Below, piece by piece: positions 15,527 through 18,091 of a stretch of 64,000 nt of DNA. The notes beneath the pieces were generated by a model. That model saw only the letters and a program-made list of their open reading frames with translations, did no database searches and had not been told where the DNA came from. The stretch lies in assembly GCF_002250505.1 (NCBI RefSeq), contig NZ_NJGY01000003.1, forward strand, positions 816,660 through 880,659, read 5' to 3'. The stretch's first letter is position 1, and every line of letters starts with the position of its first letter. A program made the translations under genes and the position numbers. This DNA is from Janthinobacterium sp. PC23-8 (lineage in GTDB: Bacteria > Pseudomonadota > Gammaproteobacteria > Burkholderiales > Burkholderiaceae_D).

Positions 15527-16225
15527 ATGCCATTGCGACACCGTGAGTTTCACCAGTTGGGCAATATGGGCTGGCTGCGCGCCGCCGTACTGGGCGCCAA
15601 TGACGGCATCGTCTCGACGGCCAGCCTGCTGCTGGGGGTGATCGCGGCGCACGCCACGCATCAAAGCATTCTGGTCGCTGGCGTGGCCGCTCTGGTGGCG
15701 GGCGCCATGTCGATGGCCACCGGTGAATATGTCTCGGTGCAGTCGCAGGCCGATACGGAGCAGGCGGCGCTGGCGCGCGAAGGCGGCGAGCTGCACGACG
15801 ATCCGACTGGGGAGCTGCGCGAACTGACGCATATTTACATGGAACGCGGCCTGGCGCCGGCGCTGGCCGAACAGGTGGCGATGGCCTTGATGGCCCACGA
15901 CGCCATCGGCGCCCACGCGCGCGACGAGCTGGGCATTACGGACAGCATGCGCGCGCGGCCGCTGCAGGCGGCACTCGCATCCGCGCTCAGTTTTGCCGTC
16001 GGCGCTGCGCTGCCGCTGCTGGTGGCGCTGCTGGCACCGATGCCGGTGCTGGCGCCCGCGATTGTCATCGCCTCGCTGCTGTCGCTTGCGCTGCTCGGTG
16101 CGCTCGCTGCCAGGGCTGGCGGCGCGCGCGTGGGCCGTGGCATGCTGAGGGTGGTGTTCTGGAGCGCGCTGTCGATGGCGGCGACAGCCGGCATCGGCGC
16201 CTTGTTCGGCGCCAGCGTGGGCTGA
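15527..16225 (+). CDS. VIT family (VIT1/CCC1-like) metal transporter
   Basis: A 232-residue inner-membrane protein of the VIT1/CCC1 family, which moves ferrous iron or manganese out of the cytosol. Diagnostic segments are RAAVLGANDGIVSTASLLLGV near residue 20, VAGAMSMATGEYVSVQSQADTE near 60, and GELRELTHIYMERGLAPALAEQVA near 90, the metal-collecting cytosolic loop. Five hydrophobic helices are visible, the last three after residue 140. The gene sits 12 bases past the sensor kinase stop, with a short ribosome site (AAAGAGG), so it is probably part of the metal-response operon. Confidence 0.88.
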   Translation: MPLRHREFHQLGNMGWLRAAVLGANDGIVSTASLLLGVIAAHATHQSILVAGVAALVAGAMSMATGEYVSVQSQADTEQAALAREGGELHDDPTGELRELTHIYMERGLAPALAEQVAMALMAHDAIGAHARDELGITDSMRARPLQAALASALSFAVGAALPLLVALLAPMPVLAPAIVIASLLSLALLGALAARAGGARVGRGMLRVVFWSALSMAATAGIGALFGASVG

Positions 16226-16263
16226 GTTCGTCAAGGTACTGCGTTCCCGAGCGGTTTGGAGCT

Positions 16264-16532
16264 GAGTATGGCTGAGAAATCAGGTAGTTAGCGGTGTTTT
16301 TGATAATCGATTAGGTGCATTTGCTGATCGTGTATCACCTCCAATTTGGTCTGGTAGCCTGGCGAACGCGATGCAACCTAGAGCCGCTGCGATTGGCATA
16401 TTGGTTGAACATAAAAACGTGAAGATCGCTGCGGTGGCAAAATCAATGTATGAAAGAATTGCGAATCGAATCGAGCGCGAAAAGGAGCGTAAACAGCGAC
16501 AGGATGAGGGCCGCGAACAGCGCTTTGAGTGA
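16264..16532 (+). pseudogene. Possible C-terminal remnant of an unknown gene
   Basis: The frame is open from just after a stop at 16263 to the TGA at 16530-16532 and reads like real protein: a middle part GAFADRVSPPIWSGSLANAM, then a charged coiled-coil-like tail with many Glu, Arg and Lys. No ATG precedes the likely conserved part; the first ATG (16371) gives only 53 residues. A 26-codon frame starting with ATG near 16505 overlaps its end, as in phage or plasmid gene strings. I do not recognise the family. Confidence 0.4.
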
Positions 16533-16675
16533 CGGCGCTTTATTTGGGCTACTTATTAAATGTGAAACTGATGGCCGTTGGTGACGGGACTGATCATCAA
16601 TGGCTCTTGTCATTTTTCAGATCGTTGCAAAGTCGCCGCGATTTTGCGCCAGCTTCACGCGTGATGCCCAAGCGC

Positions 16676-16806
16676 CGGCAACGGCGTCACCGTCACCTGC
16701 ACCTGCACCTGCACATCGAGCTCCTGCTGCCCGCCGCCCAGCACGATGCCGCGCATCGGCGTGACGTCGCTGAAGTCGCGGCCCCATCCCAGAGTGATGT
16801 GTTCGA
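16676..16806 (-). pseudogene. Duplicated scrap of the transglutaminase gene 3' region
   Basis: This stretch is nearly identical to bases 28634-28752, the 3' end of the transglutaminase gene at 28616-29542, and in the reverse frame encodes the same EHITLGWGRDFSDVTPMRG ending. It is 12 bases longer because CCTGCA is present three times instead of once. Nothing of the upstream 250 codons is here, so it is a dead fragment. Confidence 0.9.
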
Positions 16807-16812
16807 GGACCG

Positions 16813-17098
16813 GGGTCAGATCCTAATGCCGTTCAGTTAAGCTGTCTGATGCATTGAATGCGTAAGGCCTAAAAACGTAGAAACGGCGGGCCGGAGACGC
16901 GAGCCCGAGAAAATGCCGATGGCTGCGTTGCAGCTCCTAGCCGTACATGCGTACTGTCTTCGTCGCTGCGCCTTGCCCTCGACATTTTTCGGACCCGCTT
17001 GGCCCGGTGGGCCTGTGCTGGAGACCGAGGCCTCAATCCGTTTCGCGGGTTTCCTGGCAGCGTAGGCGCGCTAACTGAACGGCATTAGGGTCAGATCC
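16813..17098. mobile_element. 264-bp MITE-like element with 16-bp terminal inverted repeats and 11-bp target duplication
   Basis: The ends TAATGCCGTTCAGTTA (16824-16839) and TAACTGAACGGCATTA (17072-17087) are exact inverted repeats. They are flanked directly by the identical 11-mer GGGTCAGATCC at 16813-16823 and 17088-17098. The 264-bp body has no open frame of useful length, so it is a non-autonomous element moved by a transposase encoded elsewhere. An 11-bp duplication would suit IS4-like transposases, but that is inference. Confidence 0.85.
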
Positions 17099-17200
17099 GC
17101 CATTCGTGCACGATCTCGGCGCAGACCCGCCCAGTTGACTCTGGTCGCACTGGCGGATCGCCCCGGTGTATGGACAAGCGACTGCCGCGCAACGGCAGGC

Positions 17201-18091
17201 TCAGGCATCTGGCCGCGCCCGCGCGGACTTCTCGCGCGCTGCATCGCGCAAATGCAGGCGTATGAAATCGGCGGCAGCTTCCTGCCGGGAAGTCAGTAAC
17301 AGCTCGATCAGGTCCAGATGCTCACGGCAGCGTCGGGCTGCAGCGATGCGGTCGACCGACTTGCGGTATTCCATCAGGCGCCGCAGGCTGTTCAATCGTT
17401 TCAGGGATTCGACAATAAAGGCATTGCCCGAACATTCGGCAATCGTCTCGTGGAGCAGAATGTTGGCGTTGAACAGGTCGGCGGCCGAGACCACGTTGAT
17501 GTTGTCGAGCAGTTCACGTTGTTGTGCTTCGCAGCGCCTGAGCGCCGGTTCGTTGACGCGGAACGTCGGTTCGAGGATGCCAGCCGCTTCGATCAGTATG
17601 CGGAAGCGGTAGCTCTGATCGTAGGTATCGGCCGAGGTGAGCACGGGGCGAAATTGCCAGCCGTGGCCAGGCAGGCGCTCGATCCATCCCTCTTGCGACA
17701 TTCGCCGCAACACCGCAGCGAGCTGGCCGCGCGTGACGTCGTAGCGCCGCGCGAATTCATTTTCCGTTACCCGCTCTGGCAAATTGCCGGCCAGACGGTC
17801 TTCTGCAATGGCGAAGTAGGTCTGCTCGATCGGATCTGGCGGCGCAGGCAGCTCTGTGGACTCGTGCCCGAGGGCAGTGCCAGCGCTCGAAACGACATAG
17901 CCGCCGTCTGCATGCCCCTCGATGATGCCCTCATCGGCAAGGCGCTTGAGCGCCTCTCGGACTGGAGAACGCGACACCCGGAAGCGTTCCGCCAGTGCGC
18001 GCTCGGTCAGCCGGGCGCCTGCCTGCAGGTGCTCGGCCCCGATGTAATGCTTGATATGGACAAGCAGCGAATCAGAGATGCGTCGGGGCAT
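17201..18091 (-). CDS. GntR-family regulator with two winged-helix domains and FCD domain
   Basis: A 296-residue regulator from ATG 18091 (MPRRISDSLLVHIKHYIG); an ATG 12 codons upstream is possible. Residues about 5-70 are a GntR winged helix with RLTERALAERFRVSRSPVREALKRLADEG. Residues about 85-150 look like a second one (ENEFARRYDVTRGQLAAVLR then MSQEGWIERLPGHGWQFRP). The C-terminal 130 residues are an FCD effector domain. Usual FCD regulators have one HTH and about 220-240 residues, so this is an extended form. It is divergent from the aldehyde dehydrogenase to aconitase operon and probably controls it through TGGTAT sites in the gap. Confidence 0.85.
   Translation of the reverse strand: MPRRISDSLLVHIKHYIGAEHLQAGARLTERALAERFRVSRSPVREALKRLADEGIIEGHADGGYVVSSAGTALGHESTELPAPPDPIEQTYFAIAEDRLAGNLPERVTENEFARRYDVTRGQLAAVLRRMSQEGWIERLPGHGWQFRPVLTSADTYDQSYRFRILIEAAGILEPTFRVNEPALRRCEAQQRELLDNINVVSAADLFNANILLHETIAECSGNAFIVESLKRLNSLRRLMEYRKSVDRIAAARRCREHLDLIELLLTSRQEAAADFIRLHLRDAAREKSARARPDA

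Follow-up and report, generated by a model that had tools for sequence, protein, structure and literature searches.

IS4 is among the insertion sequences that were studied early. Mayaux and others, in a paper of 1984 whose title concerns insertion in an attenuator, reportedly found that IS4 of Escherichia coli prefers targets of the form AAAN20TTT; A and T tracts separated by about 20 bp have the look of a terminator hairpin. In 12 E. coli records covering nine distinct IS4 sites (the second flank was not usable in two), the target duplications were 12 to 14 bp long (seven distinct sites), and a strict terminator hairpin was the target at three of the seven distinct sites for which both flanks were available. 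The ends of E. coli IS4, TAATGCCGATCAGTTAAG and TAATGCCAGTCAGTTAAG, differ in 1 and 2 of 18 bases, respectively, from TAATGCCGTTCAGTTAAG, the terminal sequence of the full-length elements reported here, and the transposases are related. Palindromic targets are described in the consulted sections of Tobes and Pareja (2006; PMC1525189) for the REP-targeting insertion sequences, which insert at the symmetry axis of palindromic repeats and include the IS4-family element ISRm22. The group analyzed here differs from these in that intrinsic terminators are the most frequent of its recognised targets. The BrickBuilt MITE of Porphyromonas gingivalis is characterized in the consulted sections of PMC4596501 as an intergenic element often near terminators, which holds a repeat of another kind, a 23-nt minisatellite not in Rfam; the terminators are described as lying beside the element and not as hairpins into which it has inserted.

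The MITE described here resembles BrickBuilt in containing a different repeat that is absent from Rfam, but this repeat is a hairpin instead of a minisatellite, and its group is often inserted into terminator hairpins instead of having terminators alongside. With bacterial MITEs in general it shares the short length, the non-coding sequence, the terminal inverted repeats, the target duplication, the presence of multiple copies, and a helper located elsewhere. Unlike them, it contains an independent, widespread hairpin repeat, and its kin with identical or almost identical ends hold other palindromes. From IS4 it differs by the lack of a transposase gene and by an interior unrelated to the IS4 elements compared.

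The element was identified in a stretch of 64,000 nucleotides of Janthinobacterium sp. PC23-8, hereafter the window (Table 1). A preliminary description had taken it for a non-autonomous mobile element that has duplicated its target and contains no gene, and both statements hold: the 264 bp are bounded by perfect 16-bp repeats and exact 11-bp copies of GGGTCAGATCC, and among the window's ORFs of at least 60 amino acids, one (16529–16840) overlaps the element, by 17 bp. With up to three mismatches allowed, the terminal 16-mer matched in the window only at the two ends of the element. In 100 shuffles of this search, the mean number of matches was 0.05 and two matches were never obtained (0/100); since the exact 11-bp flanking duplication comes on top of these repeat statistics, a chance origin appears negligible. 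Being non-coding and present in several dispersed copies, the 264-bp sequence has the properties of a MITE. It had been placed a few bases beside a transglutaminase scrap. The respective frame, however, begins inside the left duplication, so that the element abuts or splits it, and the transglutaminase label is weakly supported. The view that two separate events had hit the same spot is not supported, as the scrap is weakly identified and the right flank was without a match in the 22 congeners searched, among which no empty site for the window copy was found.

Table 1. Features of the element and its immediate surroundings (window coordinates)
Feature	Position	Strand	Basis
Open frame, 55 aa, possible C-terminal transglutaminase-like fragment (weak)	16658..16822	-	First codons within left target duplication
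Left target duplication copy, 11 bp, GGGTCAGATCC, imperfect GC palindrome	16813..16823		Read from sequence
IS4-group MITE, 264 bp	16824..17087	+	Ends, duplication, further copies
Left terminal inverted repeat TAATGCCGTTCAGTTA, 16 bp	16824..16839	+	Exact reverse complement at right end
Left arm CGGGCC of short hairpin enclosing the carried repeat	16887..16892	+	Read from sequence
Carried hairpin repeat, about 88–90 bp	16902..16991	+	Match to covariance model R1; missing in 168-bp copy L074
Right arm GGCCCG of short hairpin enclosing the carried repeat	17001..17006	+	Read from sequence
Right terminal inverted repeat, perfect across 16 bp	17072..17087	-	Reverse complement of TAATGCCGTTCAGTTA
Right target duplication copy GGGTCAGATCC	17088..17098		Identical to left copy

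The possibility raised earlier that no further copies exist in any genome can be dismissed, since copies were found in the genome itself and in relatives. A near-identical second copy (98%) is located at C4:1888161–1888424, and two diverged copies show 86% and 82% identity. The relative G012, probably Janthinobacterium psychrotolerans, yielded at least 12 matches (81%–96% identity), and exact duplications of 11–13 bp were present at 7 of the 12 copies fetched; match counts from these genome searches are lower bounds, as few candidates were scored per genome. The 18-bp end was present with up to two mismatches in at most 12 of 41 genomes, which is an upper figure because four of the 12 genomes had a single inexact match (1–2 mismatches) and a control pattern matched once in two genomes. 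An empty site for the second copy on C4, whose flank is itself repetitive, was not found cleanly. The phage sequences searched contained no match to the element, and the only plasmid match was partial and came from Massilia litorea. As a mobile element, the 264-bp sequence is of an ordinary type and by now largely accounted for. Its interesting parts are the carried hairpin repeat and the terminator targeting, both of which were missed by the first reading.

The type of helper could be identified, as had been anticipated, and full-length insertion sequences with the ends of the MITE were found in two Janthinobacterium relatives, G010 (four elements of 1425 bp) and G005 (one of 1418 bp). These IS4 elements have TAATGCCGTTCAGTTAAG on both sides, are flanked by exact 11–12 bp duplications in all five cases, and contain a transposase frame. 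The 18 bases at 16824–16841 are the same as both of their ends, and the right end of the MITE agrees with them over 16 bases. The G010 transposase matches the Pfam families PF13006 and PF01609, scores 261 bits against the NCBIfam IS4 model NF033592 (cut-off 115), and is 36% identical to the E. coli IS4 transposase over 419 aligned positions; a nucleotide search of E. coli with the G010 element gave no match. By eye, the signature Y-(2)-R-(3)-E-(6)-K, which we take to be that of IS4-group transposases, was recognized in the translation (YKRRWGIETSYRELK). The preliminary description had considered 11-bp duplications uncommon, which does not apply to this group, where they range from 10 to 13 bp (a range that was also a selection criterion), nor to E. 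coli IS4 with the slightly longer duplications given above.

PF13006 was detected in 4 of the 41 genomes. In the genome carrying the window, neither PF13006 nor pairs of ends at the distance of an insertion sequence (up to two mismatches) were found. Because no helper transposase was found there, the window copy is probably immobile at present; a relict MITE does not require a helper in its own genome. An origin of the MITE by simple internal deletion from the observed IS4 elements was ruled out; the shared sequence comprises only about 19–22 bp at the ends. In all 12 long elements, the terminal repeat at one end is succeeded by its own inverted copy (by eye; one mismatch in L193), mostly with a T-rich run after it. 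This folded end could form a terminator-like hairpin facing inward (e.g., L096–L100), and in copy L043/L098 it adjoins the start of the transposase.

The locus is very probably to be understood as a MITE of the IS4 group that is targeted to palindromes and terminators, carries a hairpin repeat as a passenger, and has no helper in its own genome as searched. An IS4-type DDE transposase, supplied in trans by a full-length element, would bind the 16–18 bp ends of the MITE and move it by a cut-and-paste reaction, in which a staggered cut would give rise to the 11–13 bp duplication. Insertion would be favoured at the symmetry centre of GC-rich palindromes, chiefly intrinsic terminators with their arrangement of A tract, stem, loop, stem, and T tract. 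Copies would thereby end up at gene ends, where little harm is to be expected. The middle of the MITE, which is not IS4 sequence, would be a widespread structured hairpin repeat.

Related MITEs exist with and without this hairpin. The G012 copy L074 (168 bp) is devoid of the 90 bp holding the hairpin and has a perfect 12-bp duplication. Nine MITEs fetched from G008 have these 16-bp ends, apart from a single change in one of them, and measure 195–197, 158, or 115–117 bp, the longer ones containing nested palindromes. Their duplications are exact in all seven longer MITEs and show one or two mismatches in both short ones. This points to a greater age of the short form, although a deletion would be an alternative. 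The G003 MITEs (145 bp) differ at 2 of 18 bases of the ends and hold yet another palindrome. The palindromes in the middle of these elements are of the GGGGTCGGACCC type (L103–L111, G008) and the GTAGGTCGGATTAGC type (L112–L114, G003).

When named genomes were searched for the 18-bp end, at least 120 stretches were obtained. Those listed belong largely to Burkholderiales (Massilia, Herbaspirillum, Collimonas, and Caballeronia), besides Pseudomonas and some others. For the analysis of target sites, 63 distinct insertions (within loci L001–L235) with both ends and a 10–13 bp duplication containing few mismatches were kept, while one-ended loci and loci without a recognisable duplication were left out. 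The terminator test covered 62 of these, as one insertion lay too close to the end of its contig. A strict intrinsic terminator was present at 34 of the 62 insertions and at 2 of 550 positions drawn at random from these loci. When the test point was moved by 15 bp to either side, no terminator was detected (0/62), and larger shifts gave at most two. Elements longer than 900 bp were inserted into a terminator in all cases (11/11), MITEs in 23 of 51; the 28 sites at which the strict definition failed are all occupied by MITEs. The mean of 39 sites with 12-bp duplications showed an A tract approximately 4–8 bases outside the duplication followed by G/C-rich sequence, a pattern that is symmetric by construction because both strands were counted. 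In a leave-one-out target matrix, 57 of the 63 sites scored above the 99th percentile of the window background. The site of the window element itself reached the 97.2th percentile; it is a GC palindrome without A/T tracts and not a terminator.

The terminator preference of the group is strong and directly testable. It might have been shaped by survival alone, in that IS4 inserts widely and mainly insertions at gene ends persist; gene ends are generally safe, and all studied sites originate from natural genomes. We regard this as very improbable, because the signal peaks at the insertion point itself and vanishes 15 bp to either side, and because survival alone would not impose a symmetric signature of A and T tracts at a fixed distance from the duplication. 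A choice made by the transposase would account better for this pattern. Such a sharply centred preference would explain the location of many IS4-group copies and MITEs, and it suggests a route to how a DDE transposase reads palindromic DNA. Terminator targeting by IS4 was not found in a literature search of titles and abstracts. Of 34 insertions, 9 had kept a terminator-like hairpin on the right flank and 16 on the left. As the hairpin is often not left on the flanks, insertion is not clearly harmless, and the assumption that both flanks regularly retain a working terminator was dropped.

One of the G010 IS4 copies splits the terminator hairpin downstream of a 5S rRNA gene. The 5S terminator is intact in all 20 further loci that could be anchored, each from a different congeneric genome (3 of 23 loci were unanchored). 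It is short and simple in 18 of these and formed by a longer hairpin in two (the genome of the window and G022). The stretch downstream is shared with the occupied site in 15 of the 20 loci as judged by eye; rRNA operons are multi-copy. In the terminator of the window's genome (L357, C4:3238390–3238598), a second hairpin is nested in the apex of the longer one. Four Pseudomonas MITEs with IS4-group ends (L155, L197, L199, and L220) appear to be located inside REP-like palindromes.

The least explained part of the element is the carried hairpin repeat. Element bases 58–198 (approximately) match a repeat at many places in the genus, and the IS4 ends mostly do not adjoin the copies read. Some genomes contain arrays of it, with a period near 128 bp. 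At a contig end of one of them (G006:C133, 1–505; L033/L115), four matches to the hairpin-bearing unit follow each other with this period. The inner 88 bp form a hairpin with 28 consensus pairs in 12 sequences, eight of which were changed on both sides and yet kept. The covariance model R1 had 17 matches in the genome of the window (E ≤ 0.001, one weak), with the match at the element's hairpin at C6:833558–833655. Including this genome, R1 matched in 54 of 200 sampled genomes (40 of 109 genera) of the order and in 30 of 229 genomes of the class. A search of the element against Rfam 15 gave no match at E values up to 1, and the two matches in the region 16201–17700 were below the gathering score and outside the element; a known RNA family was thus ruled out. 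With matches in more than a quarter of the genomes of the order and none in Rfam, the hairpin repeat may represent a widespread annotation gap. It was not found in a literature search of titles and abstracts either.

Internal motifs (GCGTTGC, CTTGCCGTAC...GTACTGTCTGCG, and GCGCCTTGCC) recur with variation across taxa. The letters of the outer stem differ between loci and taxa, and the stem is largely complementary throughout. Among the R1 hits, the best pairing was with the own partner for 34 of 40 arms. This complementarity is partly due to construction, because some of the outer stem had been entered into R1 as paired positions; one of 41 copies was dropped for lack of an anchor, and cross pairs within Janthinobacterium were excluded from the background mean. 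A weak test of seven hand-picked copies from the window's genome gave a mean of 6.6 for own and 4.3 for cross pairing. An integron attC site was considered due to TAAC...GTTA in a Massilia copy, which we assume to be attC-like, and discarded, as these letters are not kept in other taxa. REP sequences of the RAYT type have a GTAG-like foot beside a hairpin of about 20–65 bp. No constant foot beside the hairpin was seen by eye in 40 anchored copies.

The hairpin may have mobility of its own. That it is the mobile unit of the element and the IS4-like ends are incidental would be in line with its occurrence at many places where such ends are not seen. Nevertheless, we give hardly any credence to this assumption: in the 63 insertions the duplications adjoin the IS4-like ends (a feature by which these insertions had been chosen), no duplication abutting the hairpin was seen in the 264-bp copies, and L074 combines IS4-like ends and a perfect duplication with the lack of the hairpin.

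For the origin of the repeat, an ordinary REP-like or structured-RNA element of 3′ ends, captured by the MITE by chance and not mobile by itself, is an evenly balanced proposition. Copies of the repeat, a few of which are inside MITEs, are more common at gene ends than between divergent genes: of 62 copies, 16 were convergent, 19 tandem, and 4 divergent, while 20 were located in crudely called ORFs and 3 were unclear; the other gaps in these loci comprised 12 convergent, 20 tandem, and 13 divergent ones. The occurrence of the repeat in arrays, inside MITEs, and at unrelated loci is less readily reconciled with such an element. Tentatively, and with less confidence, we consider a hairpin module of a separate, undescribed type, mobile or copied and present in at least the order and more sparsely in the class, which would seat itself in the apex of gene-end hairpins as the IS4-group transposons do and whose constant motifs would lie within a variable, complementary outer stem. 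If this were true, gene-end hairpins would be a common landing zone in which palindromic elements nest in each other.

Both readings are touched by the 3′ end of a conserved gene, which we take to encode an RlmB-like methyltransferase. It was located in 23 Janthinobacterium loci (L376–L398) by flanking homology, independently of R1. As classified by eye, nine loci, including that of the window's genome, contain the full hairpin, five a shortened form, and six other palindromes; one further locus was cut off and two were unanchored. The presence of the full repeat at one gene end in nine genomes speaks for an ordinary element, as the repeat can be vertically stable. The other palindromes at the same gene end in six congeners, on the other hand, suggest turnover by some mechanism. 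Two alternative outer stems, each of them complementary by eye, were recognized at this gene end. In the full form of the hairpin, the stop codon of the gene is located within the stem.
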